A stretch of DNA of 52,127 bases. It comes from Chloroflexota bacterium. Lineage in GTDB: Bacteria; Chloroflexota; Dehalococcoidia; Lucifugimonadales; JADFKI01. The stretch spans positions 12,687-64,813 of the forward strand of contig VXNZ01000029.1 of NCBI GenBank assembly GCA_009840355.1, given 5' to 3'. Position numbers and translations under genes: made by a program. Numbering within the stretch: position 1 is the stretch's first letter; every line of letters starts with the position of its first letter. The notes below the pieces were generated by a model that saw nothing but the letters and a program-made list of their open reading frames with translations, was not told the DNA's origin and ran no database searches. Below, piece by piece: positions 16,366 through 42,431 of this stretch.

Positions 16366-18107
16366 TTATTCCGCGAGTCCAATTCGGTGGTCGAAGAAAT
16401 AGAGGCTGGTGGGGTGCGGCTCGAAATCGGTTACCTGTTCGCTGACACCGTAAACCATGTACACATGCGACACCGGCATAAACGCGGTATCGTCGGTTAC
16501 TACGGCTAGGGCGTCGCAGGCGATTTCCTTTCGCTGCTCGATATCGGATACGTCAGCGGCTCTGGCGACTATGTCAACCAGTTTGGAACTGTCGTAGTGC
16601 CCGTAGTTGTTGGCGCCGCTTCCAGTGGCGTCGGCGCGAAGACCGGCGTATTTGCTGACGTTTACCACGGGGTCTCCGGTTTCGACTACGTTATTGAACC
16701 ATCCAAAGAGATCCCATGCCGGCTCGTTGACCACTGTCCATTCAGTAATGCGGACATCGGCTTTAATGCCCACATCTATGAGCATCGCTTGGGCTGCCTC
16801 TGCCATAACTGGCAACCGGAATCGTTCGGGATAGCCGCCGATGATTAGTTCCAGCGGTTCGCCATTCTTGTCAACGAAGCCGTCGCCGTCGGTGTCGGTA
16901 TATCCTGCTTCTGCCAGCAGTTCGCGAGCTCGATCAGGATCGTAGGCTGGCGCGCTCACTTCAGGACAAGACACGAAAGCTTCCGGAAGCAGAAGTTCAG
17001 CGAAGACCCCGCTCGCTTCTGTGTCCACCACGCCTGAAATGCTCTCGCGGTCGATGGCGTGCGCCATCGCTCGTCTCACCAACGGGTCAGACAACGTGCC
17101 ACGCTCGAAATTAACCCACCACATCACCACGGATGTGCCAATTGGGGCGGATTGGCTGTGCATTCCCGGCTGTGCGTCGATTGTCGCGGCGCCATTGGGC
17201 GAAATGTTGATGGCAATGTCAATATCCCCGGACTGTAAGGCGAGCTCCCGGCTGTTGGTGTCGGGAATGGCAAAATGCTCAATGCCTGCCAATGGTGGCA
17301 TTCCACCCCAGTAGTCGTCGTTAGCGATGCTGCTAAGGCGCTCTTTCTGGATATATTCGGTGGGGATGTAGGGTTTAGGGCGCCTGCGGCAATGAAATTG
17401 CCCTCCCCTGCGGCGTCAGCCGCTACCGCGTCGGTAATCGCCGTTGCCGGGGAAGTCAACAAGCCTGGCAAGGTCGGTCGCGGCTCTGTCGTAGTAACCG
17501 TGACGGTATGGTCATCCTTGGCAGACACGGAGTCGATGCCCAGATTGTCCGCGGATGCCGCAGACAACCGGACTGTCCTCTCCAAGGATGCCTTGACTGC
17601 CTCAGCATCCATCTGGTTGCCATTGTGGAACTTGACATCTGTCCGGAGCGCAATTTCCCATGTCAACGGGTCTATCTGCTCAGCGGATGTTGCTAACCAT
17701 GGTTCGGGACTGAGATCGGTTCCTGACAGCCGGAACAAGTTCTCCGACATCCCGGACTGGTTGGCGACCCAGCCGCTCTTCACTGGGTCCAGAGGGCTGT
17801 CAAGCCAAATGACGCCCGCATTCAGGGTAGGACGTTCGTCTGCGGCAGTGGGGGCTGCGGCGGGTTGTTGTGGCGCTGCGGTGGCTGCCGGCGCCTGAGT
17901 GGCTGCCGGTGCTTGAGTGGCTGCTGGTGCTGGTGCTTGTGTAGCTGCCGGTGCTTGAGTGGCTGCTGGTGCTGGTGCTTGTGTAGCTGCTGGTGCTTGA
18001 GTGGCTGCCGGCGGGGTTTCTGCCGACCCGCAGGCAAAGGCAAACGCCAGGACGAATACTAACGCCAACGGCATTAGATGCTTGATTTTTGAGTTTCCTA
18101 TGGGCAA
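16366..18107 (-). pseudogene. Frameshifted family 5 substrate-binding lipoprotein of a peptide/nickel ABC transporter
   Basis: Two overlapping frames make one protein. Frame 1 starts at TTG 18107 (GGAGG six bases upstream), has a hydrophobic signal ending in the lipobox FAFAC, a low-complexity linker of repeated ATQAP/APAAT units, then the family 5 start and LATSAEQIDPLTWEIALR. Homology leaves this frame near 17380 and resumes in another frame as KPYIPTEYIQKE and NDDYWGGMPPLAGIEHF, running to the end at 16366. The total length is one base short of a whole number of codons. One restored base would give about 580 residues, the normal size. It may be a true inactivation, programmed slippage or an assembly error. 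The substrate is likely a peptide, but a metal chelate is possible given the adjacent COG0523 gene. Confidence 0.85.
17865..18012 (-). repeat. Short tandem repeats encoding an Ala/Thr/Gln/Pro linker
   Basis: Nearly identical units of about 24-60 bases encode ATQAP-type repeats just after the lipobox of the binding lipoprotein. They form a flexible tether and are a likely site of slippage or assembly collapse. Confidence 0.75.
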
Positions 18108-20913: not shown

Positions 20914-22728
20914 CTAGGGATTCTGGCAAGCCTCTTGCAGCCACTCCCGGTCCTCGCCCTCCAGCATGGGTGCGATGGTGTCCCATACCTGTTGGTGATA
21001 TTCATCCAGCCACTGGCGTTCCTCGCGGGAAAGTTGATCCCAGTTAATGAGCTTCTTCTCGAATGGAATCAATGTCAGCGAATCCATCCGCAGCCACTTC
21101 CTTCCATCGGGATGCTCTGGAAGCTCCTCGTCCGGGAGGACAACGTACAGGTTTTCCAGACGAATGCCGCCCCATCCTGCCTCATAATAGCCGGGTTCGT
21201 TGGAGACAATCATACCGGCCTTGAATGGCTCGTCTGCGCCACGGGGAGAGATTCGCTGTGGGCCTTCGTGGACGTTTAGGAATGCGCCGACGCCGTGTCC
21301 TGTGCCGTGCCCGAAGTCTAGCCCAGCGTTCCACAGGAAAGTACGCGCCAGGGCGTCGAGGGCAACCCCTCCGGTTCCTTCGGGGAATTTCTGCATTGCG
21401 AGTTTGATGTGGCCCCGCAGGACCAGGGTGTAAACTTCCTTCTGGCGTGCCGAGGGTTCCCCAACGACCACCGTGCGGGTATCGTCCGTAGTGCCGCCCA
21501 TGAGTTGCACGCCGGAGTCAACAAGGAACAGTTCATCGTCGCGGATGGGAACGTCGGGGCTGGCGTCGGCGTAGTGGACGATCGCCCCGTTGGCGCCGGC
21601 ACCGGCGATGGTGGTGAAGCTGAGGTCGCTGAATCCTTCCTCGCTGGAGTACTCGTCGTACAATATCTGGCAGTAATCCGCTTCGCTGACAGTCTCGCCC
21701 GCATTGATTGAGTCATGTAGGCGTTTGAAGCTGCGGATTTTGGCGGCGGCGGCGTGCCGGTGGGAGTTTCGGGCAGCGGTAATTTCCGCTTCGTTTTTGG
21801 CTGCCTTTAACGCCACGGTTGGATTGGGCATTTCCAGTAGCTCTTGATCTTCGTGGAGCATCAACAGGGTGCCCATGGTTGTCCCGCTGGGGTCCAGCCA
21901 GACCATGCCCGAGGCTTCGGCGCCGTAACGCTCGATCACTTCGGAGTAGGCATCATAGGGCTGAAAGTCGATTAGCGAGGTCAGGGCTTCCGTTACCTCG
22001 CCGGGGGGAGAGACTCGGGTGAAGCAGGTGGCATTCTCAGGGTCAATCACCAGATAGCCCTCGAACACAGGATTGTATTCAATATCGCCGCCCCGCAGGT
22101 TAGTTACCCATGCAATCTCGTCCAACTTGGTCAGTACCAGTAGTGTTGCGCCCGCAGCATCCATCTCTTTGCGGATGTCGGCAAGCTTCTCGGCGACGCT
22201 GCGACCGGTAACCTCGTCCGGCAGCTGATAGATGGCATTGGCAGGCGGTTGCGGCTGCTCGTCCCAAACGGCGTCCACAAGGTTGACGTTGACCGGCACC
22301 AGTGCGCTATCCGGGGATTTCAGGGCGGACTTGTACACTTTGATTTCCTGCATCGAGACTACGAATGGGTCGAATCCCACGCGAATGCTTCCCGATTCCT
22401 TTTCCAACTCGGTCAACCACTGGCGAAGGGTCTTTTCCTTGGCAAGCCCGAGCTTGTGGACTCGGAAATTGTCGTGGTCAACCTCGTCGTCCGCCTGAAT
22501 GTGGTAGCGGGAATCTACGAACAGATGGCTCTTGTCCGGGCATATCAGGGCGTCGCCGGCGGATCCCCGAAAGCCGGTGATTGCCGTCCGGCGGCGCGTG
22601 TATGCAGGCACATATTCGTTGAGGTGGGCGTCGGACGAGGTTACGAGATAAGCGTCTATCTGTGCCTCTGCCATCAGGCGGTGGAGGCTGCTAAGCCGAT
22701 TGGACAGTGTTTGCTTGGTGTCTGCCAT
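20914..22728 (-). CDS. Xaa-Pro aminopeptidase (aminopeptidase P, M24B, three-domain type)
   Basis: 604 residues: two creatinase-like N-terminal domains (about 5-310) and a C-terminal pita-bread peptidase domain, the architecture of eukaryote-like APP1 enzymes and longer than the roughly 440-residue PepP. Metal-site motifs are FLVDSGVQLMGGTTDDTRT (two Asp), HGTGHGVGAFLNVHEGP (His), NEPGYYEAGWGGIRLEN (two Glu). It removes N-terminal residues preceding proline, using Mn or Zn. The start is ATG at 22728 behind CAAAGGAG. It is upstream of the COG0523-WD40-ABC run on the same strand, but with 286 bases between, probably a separate transcript. Confidence 0.93.
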   Translation of the reverse strand: MADTKQTLSNRLSSLHRLMAEAQIDAYLVTSSDAHLNEYVPAYTRRRTAITGFRGSAGDALICPDKSHLFVDSRYHIQADDEVDHDNFRVHKLGLAKEKTLRQWLTELEKESGSIRVGFDPFVVSMQEIKVYKSALKSPDSALVPVNVNLVDAVWDEQPQPPANAIYQLPDEVTGRSVAEKLADIRKEMDAAGATLLVLTKLDEIAWVTNLRGGDIEYNPVFEGYLVIDPENATCFTRVSPPGEVTEALTSLIDFQPYDAYSEVIERYGAEASGMVWLDPSGTTMGTLLMLHEDQELLEMPNPTVALKAAKNEAEITAARNSHRHAAAAKIRSFKRLHDSINAGETVSEADYCQILYDEYSSEEGFSDLSFTTIAGAGANGAIVHYADASPDVPIRDDELFLVDSGVQLMGGTTDDTRTVVVGEPSARQKEVYTLVLRGHIKLAMQKFPEGTGGVALDALARTFLWNAGLDFGHGTGHGVGAFLNVHEGPQRISPRGADEPFKAGMIVSNEPGYYEAGWGGIRLENLYVVLPDEELPEHPDGRKWLRMDSLTLIPFEKKLINWDQLSREERQWLDEYHQQVWDTIAPMLEGEDREWLQEACQNP

Positions 22729-23071: not shown

Positions 23072-23426
23072 TGGTGGAGACGGGGGAGAGTCGCACTCCC
23101 CGTCCAGAAAACCCTTCGGCTAAGATGTACTACAGGCTTAGTCGGTAATTGAGTCTCGCTCTATGAAGCGCCTACCGACGGGTCACTTCGCAGAGCCAGC
23201 CGATGGGTTAAGCCTTTTCGTATCGGCGTCTGTCAGGCTTTCCCCCGATAATATGGCACCCGGTCACCTCTCTCGGAGGGAAGAGATGGCGGATGTAGCC
23301 GCGGTTAGGCGGCTAGGGCAAACTCTTTGTCGTTGCCAGTTACTTTTTTGCCACTTTTAACGCGGTGCGTGGCGCCTCGGCCTGCAATCTTGCGAAGACG
23401 GCTCCCTGTCGAACCTGCGCGTCCCC
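23072..23426 (-). ncRNA. ssrA: tmRNA (ssrA)
   Basis: The tRNA-like ends fold into the acceptor GGGGACG/CGTCTCC with an encoded CCA (23072-23074) and a 5-prime domain containing the TTCGACAGGGA element. The T-arm-like 3-prime end reads GGACGGGGAGTGCGACTCTCCC. Inside, the tag frame after the conserved UAACU-like run reads GNDKEFALAA then TAA (tag 23337-23308, stop 23307-23305). The rest of the molecule contains stem and pseudoknot-like GC-rich segments. It rescues stalled ribosomes with SmpB. The 3-prime end of this gene is a common integration site for mobile DNA. An unusual coiled-coil/HEPN gene lies 26 bases upstream of its 5-prime end. Confidence 0.95.
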
Positions 23427-23452
23427 ACTTGCTGGTGATATTGTAGCACATC

Positions 23453-25111
23453 CTAGCGCACAAGTGACAGCAACCGCTCAACAAGCTTGCTGTCATCGTT
23501 ATTGTCCATTTCCCTCAATGCGCGCGCCACCTTGTTGATGCCGTCCTTCGCCCTAAGGCTATCTATACCGTTGTATTTCGGGTGAGCGGCGGTATTCCGA
23601 ACTTGCCGAACATCGGACATTCTCGTGGAGAGTCTGGGCTTTTCGGCAAAACATGCCCTATTGTCCATGATGATGTGCTCAAAGTGGTTCACATCAATGC
23701 CATCCTGAGGGCGCTTTTCTATCTTAGCCTCTCGCAGACGTCTTACATCGTCGTCGCTGTTCATAATGCGCTCTATGACATCGCACAGGTCTGCTACATC
23801 TTCGTAACGCTTTCTCAGAGAATTAATGACATAACGCCGCGCAGGGTCGCGATAAATGTTGATGGCATGGTTAAGAATGGTGATGTTGTCTATACGAGCA
23901 GTGCCTGTAAGTTGAAGTCCGTCATCAAGATCGTTTCCAGCAATTGCAGGCATGTTCGCGGCTGCTAGTTCCTTGTTTCGCAAGGTCAATTTCTCAATTG
24001 TATCTTCATCTACTTTCTGAATCCTTCTCAACTCCCCATTAGCGTCTTCCAGTTTCTTGCGTATCCCCCTCAGCGACGCTATCTCCGCCCTTTGTCTTCG
24101 GATTTCTTTGTTTCTGTCCGAATCCGATGTCAAATTCGTCCTAACGCTGTTTAGCTGCTCTAGCAGTTCGTCAACCGTCTGCGCATGCTTCGCCTCGGCT
24201 TCTTCGGATTCCTCCTCCAATTCGGATATCCGCTCCAACGCCTGAGCCAGTTGCGCCGAAGTCTCTCCGTGCGCATACTGCTCCCGCTCCATTCTTTGCT
24301 CACGAATGACTCGTGTCCGCACTTCACTGAATATCTGCTCGAAGTCGCCATTAAGGTCGTGAAGTTCGGCGTTTTCGATGCAGTCTCTTTGAAACTGTGC
24401 GGGGCTGATATTTGCTGCGTCGGATGGCCAGTAGAACTTGCTAACACTGCGACCCGGCCAGTAAAAGCGCATTGCGCCGTTGTAGCAAGCCTCTCTCGTG
24501 GCATCCTTGATATGGCTCGAAGTGTTGCCTACAAAGCGGACTACCAACGCCAATCCGAGCAGATAATCAAACACCAGCTGAGGTTCTATCGCAGTATTAC
24601 CGTTAGGGTCGTCTGTCAGTATGAGGACAGGAATCTTACGATTGGGGTTGGTGATGAAACCCATCACATCGCGAGCGGTTGGCGCATCCTCAACCAGAAA
24701 CACTTCCCTCCTGAAATGGTATTGGAATTGGTCTGTTCCAATTTTGCAGTCGTAGTCATCCACGGTCTGTTTCAGTATGAGCGGGGGGCCAGCCGTCAGG
24801 TCAGCCGGGTCGTTGTCGTCGGCTGAAACGAATCGCGTGCGAACCTGCGCCGTAACCGCCTGCCCTTCGGTGCAGAGTCTCGCTTGAATACGAAGGGTGT
24901 GTTCTGAGTCAACTGGATGCGATCGGTCCGCACCGATGATTGCATAGCCGAAAGATGCCGAAATCTCGCGTTCAGTGGAGACGGAGGAAGCCTTGTTCCT
25001 TCTGTCTGCGAGCAGGTATTCCAGCCTGTCCGCAACATTCGCGAGCAGGGCGCTGCCGGCAAGTTCGGGGGTTTCCAGTATCGTAAAGCCGGTTTCGTAT
25101 TCGGTCAGCAT
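23453..25111 (-). CDS. Coiled-coil protein with C-terminal HEPN (Swt1-like) RNxxxH motif
   Basis: 552 residues, not recognised as a named family. Residues about 1-270 form a globular domain without a motif I can name; it holds a hydrophobic FDYLLGLALVVRFVG segment and two FYWP repeats (FYWPGR and FYWPSD). Residues about 275-385 are a charged coiled coil (LERISELEEESEEAEAKH and following). The C-terminal 150 residues are helical and end with VRQVRNTAAHPKYNG: R505-N506-x3-H510 is the R-x4-6-H active-site pattern of HEPN ribonucleases, in the position and context seen in Swt1-type HEPN domains. A GGGAGG site precedes the ATG at 25111. The gene directly abuts tmRNA. Defence or RNA cleavage is an inference, not shown. 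Confidence 0.6.
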   Translation of the reverse strand: MLTEYETGFTILETPELAGSALLANVADRLEYLLADRRNKASSVSTEREISASFGYAIIGADRSHPVDSEHTLRIQARLCTEGQAVTAQVRTRFVSADDNDPADLTAGPPLILKQTVDDYDCKIGTDQFQYHFRREVFLVEDAPTARDVMGFITNPNRKIPVLILTDDPNGNTAIEPQLVFDYLLGLALVVRFVGNTSSHIKDATREACYNGAMRFYWPGRSVSKFYWPSDAANISPAQFQRDCIENAELHDLNGDFEQIFSEVRTRVIREQRMEREQYAHGETSAQLAQALERISELEEESEEAEAKHAQTVDELLEQLNSVRTNLTSDSDRNKEIRRQRAEIASLRGIRKKLEDANGELRRIQKVDEDTIEKLTLRNKELAAANMPAIAGNDLDDGLQLTGTARIDNITILNHAINIYRDPARRYVINSLRKRYEDVADLCDVIERIMNSDDDVRRLREAKIEKRPQDGIDVNHFEHIIMDNRACFAEKPRLSTRMSDVRQVRNTAAHPKYNGIDSLRAKDGINKVARALREMDNNDDSKLVERLLSLVR

Positions 25112-25200
25112 CTCATTAACCTCCCAGACGAATGTTTCTGTCTCCAGAAGTTATCGCATAAGCAGGGATGGCACAAGTTTGACGGGAACCGCCGCGGAAT

Positions 25201-25230
25201 AAAGGAAAAGGGCAGGTACGAGACCTGCCC
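25201..25230 (-). terminator. Strong intrinsic terminator of the ThDP enzyme gene
   Basis: On the minus strand GGGCAGGT and ACCTGCCC (25230-25223 and 25217-25210) form a perfect 8-bp stem with a 5-base loop, followed by TTTTCCTTT. It begins about 28 bases past the stop of the gene at 25259. Confidence 0.85.
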
Positions 25231-25258
25231 CTGCATTTTGATTGATGAGACTTGGCGA

Positions 25259-27820
25259 CTACTTTAGTGCTGCGACTAAGCCTGCTTGCCGGCTGATGCG
25301 CGCGTCGTGGTCTAGCGCGAAGCGCTTGATGCCGTTGTAGATGGATTCGGTGTCGAGGTGCGCCTCGGCGATTACGTCGGCTTCCGTGCCGCCGGTTAGC
25401 CACTGGTTGTCCCAGTCGGACACCAGCGAGTACTCGTCCGTCAGAGGTCCTGCGTTCTGCACGGGCCACATGCGACGCGTGCCGGTGGTTACGACCGCCA
25501 TGTCGTAGATTGCCTCAGGCGGGAACACGGAATCGCGGTACTCTTGGGGCTGGCGCGCGAATAGTTCCTCGCTAATCGCGGCGATAACCTTGACATTGAC
25601 GCCGTCGGCTTCGAGGCGCGGCAGCGCGTTCACCAAGTTGACCGTTGACGACGAACCTTGCACTACCACATAGCCCTGCTTGGGCTTGTCCGGGTCGAAG
25701 TCGCGGATGACATAGAAGCCCTTTGCCGCTGCGGTAAGATCGGTGTCCGCGAATGTGCTGCGGTCTGCGACGGGGAAGTCCGGGCGCGCCACTTCCAGCA
25801 CGATAACGCCAACCTTCGGATCGCGCGCGGCAATCTCGGCTGCGGCGAAGTATCCCGGCGCGACATCGTTGTAGTCCCAGAAGCTGAGCGTGACTACCTG
25901 TCCGCGCGGGAAGAGCTTCCACACCTGCGGCGCGAAAATGCCGAAGTGCGTGCGCGCGTCCGCGGCGGTTTCAGGTCCGGAGTGTCCGGCGAGAATGTTC
26001 AGCACGCCGACGCGGAACGGGCTGTCCTGATTTTGCTGACTCCACACACGGGCAGGCAGGTACATAAGCGGCGTGAATGCGCCGTAGCTGCCGCTGAGCG
26101 CCCAGACGCCCACATGCTGCTCCGGGTCAAGCGAAGCCGACTGCCCGACGAAGCCGACCGCCGTTGAGACATTGCCCGCTTCCTGAATCGCCGCCTTCAG
26201 CCGCGTGCCGGTCGGGTTGGTAACCGGATCGTAGTGTCCCCAAAGCCCACCGTGCTCGACGTTGATGGACTCGGCAAGGTCTGCCGCCACGATAACGAAC
26301 CTGTTGTCCGTTATGTAGTTCACATACTTGACGATTTCGGATATTGCGCGGCGCGTGCCACGCACATTGCCGGGTTCCTCGAAGAGCTTGATGGAGACAT
26401 CCTTCTCTTCGCCGGTAACCTTGTTGGCGATGCTGACGGTCTGCTCTTCGACGGGCAGGTTGTCCACGGCGAGACGGTCGTCTAGGAACGGGTCAACATT
26501 GCGGTCGATGCGCAGCGGCATGTCGTCGTCCACGCTGTCGCCGATTTCCACGAGTCGGTCGGCGAGCCAGTCCCCCAGCCCGTTTTGCTCCAGCACGGAC
26601 ATTGCGACATCGATGTTGCGCTTGAACTCAAGCAGCCTTTCGCGCATATCGGTCGCCGCGTTGCCGGTGCGGATGCCTTCAAACTCTACACCGAAGCGGC
26701 TCTCGAATGTGGACGCCAGCGCGGTGAAGTAGTCGCCGTTGAACGGGAAGCCGTAGGGATGGCTCGCGTAGCTGACAATCTGGTCGCCGTAGCCGGGCAG
26801 ACTGCCGTTAACCGCGCCGGGCCACCAGCCCTTCACCGTGTTGCCCACGACAATCATCGGTCGGTCGTCAGTGGGATCCCAGTCTTCCATCGCCTTCAGG
26901 ACGCCGAGCACTTGGTCGTAGTCGTTGCCGTTGTCGATGGTAAAGACATTCCAGCCGTAAGCCGCCCACTGGTCTTCGATGCGGTATTCATCGTACTGCG
27001 GCTGAATGACGCCGCCGATAAGCTCGTCATCGATACCGGCGTTGTTGTACGACAGCAGGATGCGCAGGCGCTTGCCGACCTGCTGGGCAACGGCTGCCGT
27101 CTTCATCTCCTGCGAGTGCCCGGAGGTCATGGCGAACTCACCTTCGATAGCCATAATTTTCAGGCTATCCGGTGCCCCCATCATGTCCCAGAATGCCGCC
27201 TTGCCCGCCGCCGTAGCGATGCCGATGCCGGACGGACCGCCGTTGACATCGTTCGTCAGGTCGGTTGTCTCGGAGTGTCCTGCGAGAGAGCGAATGCCGC
27301 GAATCTTTGCCTGCTGCATTTCCGGCGCGTACGTCAGGTCGAAATCTTCGAGCAATGTGGCGAGTGCGCCGGCGCCGCGCCTAAAGCCAAGGCAGTCGAT
27401 GCTGAGCATGCCTTGCACATGGTCAACGGCGTAGCGCGGGTCGCCGGTCTTTGCGTGCTTGCGAGCGAGCGCTTCGCCCATAATCATCCAGAGCGCGTAG
27501 GTTACCGGCGCGTTGTGTCCGCCGGCAAGCATGAACCTGTCCGCGTAAGGGTGCTTAGGGCGGCGGTAGTCGAAGCGCATGCCGCCGTTTTCAGGACCGG
27601 CGAGGTGCGACATCACGGTGTACGGAGTGTAGGCAAGTGGTCCGCCGAAGTGTCCGGTCTGCGAGTAGTTACCTAGCAGCACCAGCGTCATAGCGGTGAG
27701 GAAGCCGACCTCTTCAAATCGGTTCTTGTCGTAATCGGGCAGCGCGACGGCCGTTGCCGTCCTGTTACTGGATAGAGCGACGCGGTCAATCGTCATTACC
27801 GAACCATTTGCGTTTGGCAT
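25259..27820 (-). CDS. Transketolase / pyruvate dehydrogenase E1-like ThDP enzyme
   Basis: 853 residues. The order of a ThDP-binding domain, a pyrimidine domain and a C-terminal transketolase domain matches transketolases and homodimeric E1. The N-terminal part has FMLAGGHNAPVTYALWM (cofactor His region). The ThDP motif, normally GDG...NN, appears as AIEGEFAMTSGHSQEM, then YNNAGIDD about 30 residues on; Glu replaces the metal-binding Asp. The middle domain has a FVGQSASLDPEQHVGVW block, and the C-terminal domain has VVTTGTRRMWPVQNAG. It likely transfers a two-carbon unit, but donor and acceptor are unknown; no lipoyl partner genes are nearby. The ATG at 27820 follows GGGAGAG. It stands alone, ending in a strong terminator. 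Confidence 0.75.
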   Translation of the reverse strand: MPNANGSVMTIDRVALSSNRTATAVALPDYDKNRFEEVGFLTAMTLVLLGNYSQTGHFGGPLAYTPYTVMSHLAGPENGGMRFDYRRPKHPYADRFMLAGGHNAPVTYALWMIMGEALARKHAKTGDPRYAVDHVQGMLSIDCLGFRRGAGALATLLEDFDLTYAPEMQQAKIRGIRSLAGHSETTDLTNDVNGGPSGIGIATAAGKAAFWDMMGAPDSLKIMAIEGEFAMTSGHSQEMKTAAVAQQVGKRLRILLSYNNAGIDDELIGGVIQPQYDEYRIEDQWAAYGWNVFTIDNGNDYDQVLGVLKAMEDWDPTDDRPMIVVGNTVKGWWPGAVNGSLPGYGDQIVSYASHPYGFPFNGDYFTALASTFESRFGVEFEGIRTGNAATDMRERLLEFKRNIDVAMSVLEQNGLGDWLADRLVEIGDSVDDDMPLRIDRNVDPFLDDRLAVDNLPVEEQTVSIANKVTGEEKDVSIKLFEEPGNVRGTRRAISEIVKYVNYITDNRFVIVAADLAESINVEHGGLWGHYDPVTNPTGTRLKAAIQEAGNVSTAVGFVGQSASLDPEQHVGVWALSGSYGAFTPLMYLPARVWSQQNQDSPFRVGVLNILAGHSGPETAADARTHFGIFAPQVWKLFPRGQVVTLSFWDYNDVAPGYFAAAEIAARDPKVGVIVLEVARPDFPVADRSTFADTDLTAAAKGFYVIRDFDPDKPKQGYVVVQGSSSTVNLVNALPRLEADGVNVKVIAAISEELFARQPQEYRDSVFPPEAIYDMAVVTTGTRRMWPVQNAGPLTDEYSLVSDWDNQWLTGGTEADVIAEAHLDTESIYNGIKRFALDHDARISRQAGLVAALK

Positions 27821-38844: not shown

Positions 38845-38942
38845 GCGCCGGATGACGCGCGCGGCGCTCGAATGGATTGGCGGAAACTGGGCTGGCGTTG
38901 TCGCAATGCTGCGCCGGTGAGATAACCCACGGAGGCATCACT

Positions 38943-40700
38943 ATGACTACCTCTTCATTTCCCATCATAAGCAAGCCTGCCATCGAGGACATGGAGACGA
39001 AGCCGAACCTCGACTACGACAAGGTTCGCGGCAACTTCGACTGGCAGCGGATGTACGACGAACTCGATTGGCAGCCCGGCGGCGGCTTGAACAAGGCGCA
39101 CGAGGCTATCGACCGCCACGCCAACGGACGCAACCGCGACAAGATTGCCATGATATGGGAAGGCAAGAACGGCGAGAAGGAAACCTACACCTTCGGGCAG
39201 ATGAAGGAGCAGTCCAACAAGTTCGCCAATGTGCTGAAGAGCCTTGGCATCGAAAAGGGCGACCGCGTGTTCATCTACATGGAACGGCTGCCTGAACTGT
39301 ACTTCGCCTTCTTCGGAATCCTAAAGGTCGGCGCGATCGCGGGACCGCTCTTCTCGGCATTCGGGCCGGACCCGGTGAAGGATAGGATGCTGGACAGCGA
39401 GGCGAAGGTTCTCGTTACTCAGCCGGATCTGCGGCGCAAAATTACGCCCGTCATTCCCGAGCTGTTCGAGTTGCAGCACATGCTCATCGTCAACAAGCAC
39501 AACCGCGACCCACAGCCGCTGATGTCCGGCGACCTGAGCTACGAAGAGGAAATGTCGAAGGCGACCGCGAACTTTGAGACCGTCGCCACAAGCCAGTACG
39601 ACTACTCCATAATGCACTACACATCCGGCACGACCGGCAAGCCCAAGGGCGCCGTGCACCGGCATCAGGCGGTCGTGCAGCAGTACGCGACCGGCAAGTG
39701 GGCGCTCGACCTGCAGGAAGACGACATATACTTCTGCACGGCAGACCCGGGCTGGGTAACCGGCACATCCTATGGCATGCTCGCGCCGTGGACGAACGGC
39801 GTCACGCAGCTCATCTACGAAGGCGGATTCCGCGCGAGCAAGTGGTATCAGCTCATTCAAGACTACAATGTAACTGTGTTCTACACCGCGCCGACGGCGA
39901 TTCGCATGCTGATGAAGGCGGGCGACGATATACCGCGCCGCTATGACATGTCTGCGCTGCGCTTTATGGCGAGCGTGGGCGAACCGCTCAACCCTGAGGC
40001 GGTCGTCTGGGGCAACGAAGTCTTTGGCATGCCGTTCCACGACAACTGGTGGCAGACCGAAACCGGCGCGATAATGTGCGCGAACTACGCCTGCCAAGAT
40101 GTTGTGCCCGGCTCGATGGGCAGGCCCATTCCGGGCGTGGAGCTTGGCATCGTGGACGACGAATACAACGAAGTGCCGGTAGGACAGGACGGCAATCTGG
40201 TCGTGCGGCCGAATTGGCCATCGATGTTCCACGGCTACTGGAACAACAGCGAAATGTACAACTCGCGCTTCCGCAAGGGCTGGTACATCACCGGTGACAC
40301 TGCGCGTGTGGACGAGAACGGCTACTACTGGTTCGTCGGACGCGCCGATGATGTCATCAACACGGCAGGTCATCTCGTCGGACCATTCGAGGTAGAGAGC
40401 GCGCTGATTGAGCATCCGGCGGTCGCGGAGGCTGGCGTAATCGGCAAGCCTGACCCCATAGCGATGGAAGTCGTGAAGGCGTTCGTCTCACTGAAGGACG
40501 GCTACGAAGAGTCCGCCGACCTGCGCCGCGATATAATGCGATTCAGCCGTCAGAAGCTAGCCGCCGCGGTCGCTCCGCGCGAGCTGGATTTTGTGCCCAC
40601 TCTGCCCAAGACTCGCAGCGGCAAGATAATGCGGCGCCTGCTAAAGGCCCGCGAACTCGGCCTGCCCGAAGGCGACACCAGCACGCTTGAGGACGACTAG
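38943..40700 (+). CDS. acsA: Acetyl-CoA synthetase (AMP-forming)
   Basis: 585 residues from ATG at 38943 (GGAGG eight bases upstream). An upstream in-frame start at 38877 would add 22 residues without family likeness. Adenylation motifs in order are MHYTSGTTGKPKGAVH (P-loop), NWWQTETGAIM, GWYITGDTARVDENGYYWFVGR and KTRSGKIMRRLLKA, whose Lys is the usual acetylation site. It activates acetate (or propionate) to acyl-CoA. It is about 60 residues shorter than E. coli Acs at the N-terminus, matching the compact AcsA forms of Gram-positive bacteria and Chloroflexi. It precedes a small PaREP1/HEPN-like gene by 25 bases. Confidence 0.92.
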   Translation: MTTSSFPIISKPAIEDMETKPNLDYDKVRGNFDWQRMYDELDWQPGGGLNKAHEAIDRHANGRNRDKIAMIWEGKNGEKETYTFGQMKEQSNKFANVLKSLGIEKGDRVFIYMERLPELYFAFFGILKVGAIAGPLFSAFGPDPVKDRMLDSEAKVLVTQPDLRRKITPVIPELFELQHMLIVNKHNRDPQPLMSGDLSYEEEMSKATANFETVATSQYDYSIMHYTSGTTGKPKGAVHRHQAVVQQYATGKWALDLQEDDIYFCTADPGWVTGTSYGMLAPWTNGVTQLIYEGGFRASKWYQLIQDYNVTVFYTAPTAIRMLMKAGDDIPRRYDMSALRFMASVGEPLNPEAVVWGNEVFGMPFHDNWWQTETGAIMCANYACQDVVPGSMGRPIPGVELGIVDDEYNEVPVGQDGNLVVRPNWPSMFHGYWNNSEMYNSRFRKGWYITGDTARVDENGYYWFVGRADDVINTAGHLVGPFEVESALIEHPAVAEAGVIGKPDPIAMEVVKAFVSLKDGYEESADLRRDIMRFSRQKLAAAVAPRELDFVPTLPKTRSGKIMRRLLKARELGLPEGDTSTLEDD

Positions 40701-40725
40701 AAGCCAAATACAACGAAAGGTTCGT

Positions 40726-41091
40726 ATGACGCTCCCGGAGCAACCCATAGAAAGCCATGATGTACACAGCCGTCGCCTGATTCGGCATGCGGAAGAGATG
40801 CTGGAAGCGGGCGACAGGCTGCAGGCGTCCGAAAAGGCGTGGGGCGCGGTCGCGCATCGGCTGAAAGTGGTCGCGGATAATCGTGGCTGGAAGTATGAGA
40901 CGCACACTGACGCTTTTACGCTTGTCAGGAACCTTGACAGGGAGCAGCGGAATCCGCGCATAAGAACCCTGTTCGATGTGGCTCACGGCTTGCACAACAA
41001 CTATTACAAGGACACAAGGCCGATTGACTATATCCGGGAGCAGATCGCAGATGTGAAGGAACTGCTCTCGCTTTTGGAGCGTATAGAGTAG
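40726..41091 (+). CDS. PaREP1/HEPN-like small helical protein
   Basis: 121 residues from ATG at 40726 (AAAGG upstream); the in-frame start at 40687 lies within acsA and is less likely. The pattern RLIRHAEEMLEAGDRLQASEKAWGAVAHRLKVVA is like the PaREP1/HEPN four-helix family, in which a KAWGA helix packs against a second long helix. No R-x4-6-H nuclease motif is obvious. PaREP1-like HEPN proteins often partner with small nucleotidyltransferases, but none is adjacent here. It is probably cotranscribed with acsA. Function unknown. Confidence 0.6.
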   Translation: MTLPEQPIESHDVHSRRLIRHAEEMLEAGDRLQASEKAWGAVAHRLKVVADNRGWKYETHTDAFTLVRNLDREQRNPRIRTLFDVAHGLHNNYYKDTRPIDYIREQIADVKELLSLLERIE

Positions 41092-41198
41092 AACTCGCCA
41101 ATGTTCACATCGTGCGAAACGACCAATCGCCGGTAAAGGTTTAATTACGTCCATACATATCTGCCCATCCATGTCTGAATAAACAACGGAGGTATTCA

Positions 41199-42431
41199 AT
41201 GAAGATTAGCTGGTTCCACTTGATGCCCTATCGGTTTTTGCCGAAGGACTTCGAGGACAAGTATCGCAGCGTCTGGGTCGATGTGCCCAGTCATTTGTTC
41301 GAGGCGGACAAAGCGCATCAACTCTACAACGAATACCTTGACGAGCTGGAGTTCGCGGACGAGGTTGGCTTCGACGGCATCTGCGTCAACGAGCATCACA
41401 ACAACGCTTACGGCATCATGCCCAGCCCGAACATCACCGCCGCCACGCTGACCCGCCGCACTAGCAACGCCGCGATCATCGTTCTGGGAAACAGCCTCGC
41501 GTTGTACAACCCACCGTTGCGAGTCGCCGAGGAGTTCGCAATGCTCGACTGCATCAGCGGCGGCAGGCTTGTCGCGGGGTTTCCGGTCGGCACATCCATG
41601 GACACGAACTTCGCTTATGGTGTCAACCCGGCGATTTTGCGCGAGAAGTACTACGAAGCGCACGACCTCGTGATGAAGGCTTGGACCGAGCCGGAGATGT
41701 TCTCGTACAACGGCAAGTATAACCAGGTGCGCTACGCCAACATCTGGCCGCGACCGCTCCAAAAGCCGCATCCGCCCGTGTGGATTCCAGGTGGCGGCAG
41801 CGTGGAGACTTGGGAATGGACCAGCCGCATGAACTACGTTTATTGCTACCTGAGCTACTCCGGCTACAAGCGCGGCATCCAGGTGATGGACGGCTTCTGG
41901 AAAGAGATGGAGCGGCTCGGCACGGATGACAACCCGTATCGTGCCGGATTCTTGCAACTGGTGTGCGTTGCCGAGACCGATGAGAAGGCGAAGGAACTTT
42001 ACGCTGAGCATGTGGAATACTTCTACAAGAAGTGCCTGCATGTATATGAAGGCTTCGCGGACGCGCCCGGCTATCGCACAATACGCACGCTGAAAGCAGG
42101 CGCGGTGGCGCAGCTCGGCGCGGCGGCGAACCAGACGAGGCAGGCGATGACTTGGGACGACTTCGTAGAGCAGGGCTATGTGATTGCCGGTAGCCCGAAG
42201 ACCGTCATCGAGAACCTGCGTGGCGCGGTTGAAGGCTTGCGCGTGGGGCATCTGATGGTGCTGTTGCAGATTGGCAGCATGCCCAAAGACCTGACGATGA
42301 AGAACACCGAACTGTTCGCCACGGAAGTGTACCCTGAACTGCAAGGCATGTGGGACGAATACGAAGACCACTGGTGGCCGCAACCCATCGAAGAGCGCGA
42401 AGTCGCGGGTATGGCGTCGGCAGGTCCGTAG
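41199..42431 (+). CDS. LLM-class flavin-dependent oxidoreductase (bacterial luciferase-like)
   Basis: 410 residues with the luciferase-like TIM barrel: an ISWFHLMPYRFL start, FADEVGFDGICVNEHHNN, IIVLGNSLALYNPPLRVAEEFAMLD and SGGRLVAGFPVGTSMD (flavin and phosphate side), then HPPVWIPGGGSVETWEW. It probably uses FMN or F420 to oxidise an organic substrate that is not predictable. A long C-terminal region includes a GSPKTVIENLR block. GGAGG precedes the ATG at 41199. It is followed by an alpha/beta hydrolase-fold gene 124 bases downstream, compatible with a catabolic pair. Confidence 0.88.
   Translation: MKISWFHLMPYRFLPKDFEDKYRSVWVDVPSHLFEADKAHQLYNEYLDELEFADEVGFDGICVNEHHNNAYGIMPSPNITAATLTRRTSNAAIIVLGNSLALYNPPLRVAEEFAMLDCISGGRLVAGFPVGTSMDTNFAYGVNPAILREKYYEAHDLVMKAWTEPEMFSYNGKYNQVRYANIWPRPLQKPHPPVWIPGGGSVETWEWTSRMNYVYCYLSYSGYKRGIQVMDGFWKEMERLGTDDNPYRAGFLQLVCVAETDEKAKELYAEHVEYFYKKCLHVYEGFADAPGYRTIRTLKAGAVAQLGAAANQTRQAMTWDDFVEQGYVIAGSPKTVIENLRGAVEGLRVGHLMVLLQIGSMPKDLTMKNTELFATEVYPELQGMWDEYEDHWWPQPIEEREVAGMASAGP

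Follow-up and report, generated by a model that had tools for sequence, protein, structure and literature searches.

What is the gene that sits directly beside the tmRNA gene (ssrA) in this Chloroflexota genome, and does its position bear on its function? The window, by which we mean the whole stretch of 52,127 nucleotides that was analysed, carries at positions 23453–25111, on the reverse strand, an open reading frame for a 552-residue protein. A first-pass annotation, made from the letters alone, had described a coiled coil and an RNxxxH motif (R505 and H510) in this frame, and all of these are present. A Shine-Dalgarno sequence, GGGAGG (25120–25125, reverse strand), lies 8 nt before the ATG, and three full-length relatives with 25–31% identity were found; we therefore take the frame to be a real gene. 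Its GC content is 52.0%, compared with 58.4% for the window. The open reading frame, PADLOC, alignments and hhalign together divide the protein into a HEC-07-like N-terminal domain, a coiled coil and a C-terminal HEPN domain of the Swt1 type.

Rfam placed the tmRNA at 23072–23426 on the same strand (RF00023, 158.5 bits, E = 1.8 × 10−63), although ARAGORN did not report it there, and the 26-base spacing between its 5′ end and the gene was borne out. In two congeners of other species, G001 and G004, ssrA directly follows the transketolase-like gene that forms the upstream flank in the window (25259–27820, reverse strand), with no gene between them. The gap from the transketolase-like gene to ssrA is 1,832 bp in the window, compared with 139 bp in G001 and 164 bp in G004, and homology to G001 restarts at 23454, within the stop codon of the 552-residue gene. 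Both flanks of the insertion are intact. On one side stands an extended −10-like element of ssrA (TGCTACAAT; 23440–23448, reverse strand), read by eye and conserved with two congeners; on the other, a terminator-like hairpin 3′ of the transketolase-like gene (25208–25232, reverse strand) resembles a hairpin at the empty site of G001. In three of the four congeners the protein has no match; in the fourth, G004, a HEC-07-type protein is encoded at another place. The gene is thus a solitary insertion, absent from the ssrA spot in sister species. The comparison with sister strains that the first-pass annotation had proposed has thus turned up an empty site in two congeners, and vertical conservation beside ssrA, a pattern named there as speaking against a defence role, proved false.

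That annotation had also regarded tmRNA as a hot spot for integrated islands. Integrases usually use the 3′ end. The insertion here is on the 5′ side and the adjacent genes include no integrase, so the locus does not look like an island at ssrA, for which a 3′-end insertion and an integrase would be expected; nor was a partner gene or a defence island found beside the gene. Past ssrA come genes for an M24 aminopeptidase P and a CobW-type GTPase, and the genes farther out are also housekeeping genes. We observed separately that the 3′ side of ssrA is variable too: the M24 gene (20914–22728) has no match at E = 1 × 10−50 in 20 relatives, and G001 (L059, 4294–10500) carries other genes after ssrA before homology to the window resumes at 38926–41752. 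An SBP_bac_5 open reading frame in the window (16366–18074) matches only positions 147–341 of its profile; the 5′ half may sit in an overlapping frame (17124–18074), a possible frameshift.

The relatives of the protein occupy quite different sites. One HEPN-type relative (L055) stands alone between nadA and nadC, and another (L056) stands alone between a gene for a TPP enzyme and radC–nurA; at L057 the gene order is that of L056, judged by the lengths of the open reading frames. We found no tmRNA in these three stretches or at the locus of L002. Lone relatives at several loci make the ssrA flank one of several kinds of site, and because those loci are unrelated and without a nearby tmRNA, the link to tmRNA is positional on present evidence. 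The suggested functional link to ribosome rescue accordingly finds no support in the three full-length relatives and L002. The same data bear on the reading that the HEPN domain belongs to a host RNase for RNA processing or stress, a housekeeping enzyme that perhaps works with tmRNA in ribosome rescue. Its attractions are the same-strand arrangement, in which the gene stops 26 bp from ssrA, and the fact that HEPN domains serve RNA processing as well (PMC3710099), but the gene is missing from between its two flanks in two congeners, most congeners have no protein match at all, and no tmRNA lies at the loci of the full-length relatives, which leaves this reading very improbable. These distributions come from 1,575 genome scans within the phylum, some genomes being scanned repeatedly; the genome contig collection was scanned with short peptide patterns only. 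HEPN-type members were not found in the plasmid, phage and viral collections, and scans of viral contigs gave no new relatives, finding L036 again as L064. L036 is an IMG/VR contig filed as viral that encodes a HEC-07-type protein. On a Bradyrhizobium plasmid (L065, 1960–10041), a relative of the HEC-07 C-terminal part lies near genes for a TrlF family ATPase and a RelE/ParE-type toxin.

We then considered the C-terminal domain (residues 407–540; 23492–23893, reverse strand), which the first-pass annotation had assigned to HEPN. As a single sequence, the protein scores 16.3 bits against Pfam HEPN_Swt1 (PF18731; E = 0.013), below the curated cut-off of 27.5, and its relatives L039 and L041 likewise stay under the cut-off; DUF4145 also gave a weak score (E = 0.011). 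Comparison of profiles was far more sensitive. With hhalign, the four tails of the protein and its full-length relatives matched six HEPN_Swt1 domains at 99.2% probability and E = 1.7 × 10−19 over 132 columns; Pfam scans covered five of these reference domains (L003, L004, L005, L044 and L047; the sixth is L049), and all five exceed the cut-off. The top whole-protein matches in related genomes, L002 aside, are HEPN_Swt1 proteins above the Pfam cut-off. R505, N506, H510 and P511 are invariant among the four full-length proteins and the six HEPN_Swt1 domains of other proteins in the order. A lone RNxxxH would arise by chance in 552 residues in a few per cent of cases by our rough estimate and is therefore not very rare, but these four residues are invariant throughout both sets. 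The motif here, RNTAAH (R505 to H510; 23582–23599, reverse strand), agrees with the HEPN superfamily pattern Rx4-6H with a polar residue after the arginine. RNxxxH is the predicted RNase active site of HEPN, the residue after the arginine usually being N, D or H (PMC3710099). Profile-profile comparison and the invariant catalytic residues thus support an Abi2/Swt1-type HEPN domain with a predicted RNase active site, in agreement with the annotation. It is also conceivable that the domain is non-catalytic and binds RNA or nucleotides, the protein acting by sequestration or as a scaffold. Loss of the motif is known from some HEPN families, for which a non-enzymatic action is predicted (PMC3710099), and the weak DUF4145 score would be in keeping with this, but the four residues are invariant as an active site would be, and we consider a non-catalytic role unlikely.

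The N-terminal domain (residues 1–250; 24362–25111, reverse strand) had been left unnamed by the first-pass annotation, yet it can be named. PADLOC matched residues 87–347 to positions 121–391 of its HEC-07 profile (E = 1.1 × 10−12). Coiled coils can inflate scores of this kind, and we therefore compared the N-terminal domain alone: with hhalign, three HEPN-type N-termini matched seven HEC-07-type N-termini at 99.8% probability (E = 2.2 × 10−28). The hallmark of the domain is RxxPv...LxGxAxV...CYxGAxRxYWPG, and R158, P161, L184, G186, A188, V190, G212, A213, R215 and P219 are common to nearly all of the 24 aligned rows. The protein has both the N-terminal domain and the coiled coil of the profile. 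The C-terminal module of HEC-07 (profile positions of about 400–553, with H...R...GxH) is missing, the match stopping at position 391, and residues 407–540 match HEPN where that module would stand. Embedding in or association with a defence system, a mark of HEC-07, was not seen, the neighbours in the window being housekeeping genes. Other profile matches, to NCBIfam TrlF (E = 0.029) and to JetC, LmuB and ZorA, were dismissed as coiled-coil noise. HEC stands for Hma-embedded candidate, and assays have shown antiviral protection by several HECs, of which HEC-06 is one (PMC12988326). The HEC families are candidate defence systems in the PADLOC listing; our literature search found no test of HEC-07 itself, which is a candidate family.

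Between the two domains lies the long coiled coil that the annotation had noted (residues 254–385; 23957–24352, reverse strand), seen as AlphaFold helices at residues 254–326 and 330–385 and in many matches to coiled-coil profiles. The pLDDT of these helices is mostly 60–74, falling to about 45–55 at both ends. A single-sequence AlphaFold model of the protein had a pLDDT of 38. The second model, from six rows with L033–L037 as the only relatives and thus without alignment depth in the HEPN part, reached a mean pLDDT of 58.8 and a pTM of 0.35; much of residues 1–125 and 140–200 was at 60–80, and the HEPN region had helices where expected at about 40–55. Foldseek with the AlphaFold model gave no match below 1 × 10−3, and the structural comparisons returned no HEPN entry for a model that, with a HEPN pLDDT of about 40–55, is too weak to reveal that fold. 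VIA-align reported a thioredoxin-like arrangement for residues 135–249 (Z = 10.0, rmsd 2.7, 102 residues aligned). We keep this fold as a hint only, since Foldseek found no match, the sequence lacks a CxxC, and a comparison by hhalign with the thioredoxin of the same genome gave a probability of 0.4%. When the full-length, HEPN, N-terminal and HEC-C alignments were used as sequence queries, no solved structure was hit below E = 0.01.

How did a HEC-07-like front come to carry a HEPN tail? When the C-terminal domain was used as the query, three full-length proteins built in this way came to light (L039, L040 and L041). Their three genomes belong to the order and represent one family and two genera, both other than the genus of the window; L040 and L041 are 95% identical. 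Among the relatives found, only these three and the 552-residue protein combine a HEC-07-like front with a HEPN tail. Where a C-terminal effector could be detected in the other HEC-07 relatives, it is a different module, marked by an invariant H, R and GxH, for which Pfam gives no match. A home-made HEC-C profile matches the tails of all scanned N-terminal relatives except L027, L028 and L029, but some of these proteins had served to build it (L073 and L031 were in its training set), so the count of carriers is descriptive. L027, L028 and L029 have neither tail; they are short proteins in which the HEC-07 N-terminus is followed by hardly any C-terminal effector or by none. In L006, L008 and L011 the HEC-07 C-terminal module is joined to unrelated N-termini. 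We also considered whether the HEC-07 tail might be a BECR/RelE-like RNase; no search backed this. In a tree built from just the N-terminal domain, a branch with a bootstrap of 100 and an SH-aLRT of 99 sets the four HEPN proteins apart on one side; L002 and L069, which lie nearest to them, have the HEC-07 tail. A single tail exchange would explain the HEPN clade on this tree, which is unrooted, so that the direction of exchange depends on the root.

Together, these results make it fairly probable that the gene is a single-gene, horizontally acquired, HEC-07-like defence effector with a swapped-in HEPN RNase tail. The single-gene defence effector proposed by the first-pass annotation agrees with the match to HEC-07, with the empty site and with relatives that are solitary and scattered; the tmRNA part of that proposal found no support. 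HEPN toxins often occur in toxin-antitoxin pairs, and a toxin-like RNase gene, either a solitary toxin or a selfish addiction element with no anti-phage role, would likewise occur at unrelated loci, as this gene type does. But neither an antitoxin-sized gene nor an MNT partner gene could be recognised next to the gene or its relatives, and the front half is common to HEC-07 proteins with another tail; we give this reading little chance. The front half and HEPN tail suggest a defence module whose weapon can be exchanged and which has no particular tie to tmRNA.

For such a defence effector we infer, by analogy with the named families, RNase and anti-phage activity, together with sensing, oligomerization and self-toxicity, as follows. 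The N-terminal domain would be the likely infection sensor, and the coiled coil would oligomerise and couple it to HEPN. The HEPN domain, paired with a second copy, would be inactive until triggered and would then cleave RNA (tRNA, mRNA or rRNA) through R505 and H510. Cleavage would stop the phage and probably host growth too. The architecture itself probably reflects a one-time exchange in which a Swt1-type HEPN replaced the other module of a HEC-07-like protein. We also propose, at somewhat less than even confidence, that the HEC-07 front is a general infection sensor with exchangeable tails, HEPN RNase or H-R-H, that kill by two chemistries, and that a tail swap in the laboratory would work.

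HEC-07 is a candidate without a known mechanism in the literature searched. Because the same presumed sensor is here joined to a HEPN domain whose predicted chemistry depends on two named residues, the family becomes open to testing. Should the HEPN form prove protective by way of R505 and H510, the HEC-07 tail, which has an invariant H, R and H of its own, would probably be a nuclease or another toxic enzyme in the equivalent position. The gene and its relatives are also lone defence candidates in housekeeping neighbourhoods (ssrA, nadA–nadC and radC), outside any defence island, and island-based searches would therefore miss such genes.

Among known systems, the protein resembles HEC-07 (PADLOC PDLC04158–04161) in being the product of a single gene of about 550 residues in which a domain with RxLP...LxGLAxV...YxGAVRxYWPG precedes a coiled coil; a full-length example is L033 of Verrucomicrobium (E = 4.1 × 10−56). 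It differs in its tail, which is HEPN instead of the module with invariant H, R and GxH. The nearest HEPN domains have the defence-type fusion partners DUF499 and DndB. The Ava_2192 group (HEPN and DUF499 ATPase) shares HEPN_Swt1 with RNxxxHP and provides the nearest sequence matches in the order. Members of that group, encoded in restriction-modification operons, carry HEPN at the N-terminus and an AAA+ ATPase in the same protein (PMC3710099), whereas here HEPN is C-terminal behind a coiled coil, the gene is solitary and a Pfam scan of the protein found no DUF499 or other AAA+ ATPase match. A HEPN_Swt1–DndB fusion from the same order (L044, 304–1947) likewise joins HEPN_Swt1 to a defence-type partner, but its HEPN is N-terminal and its partner is DndB.
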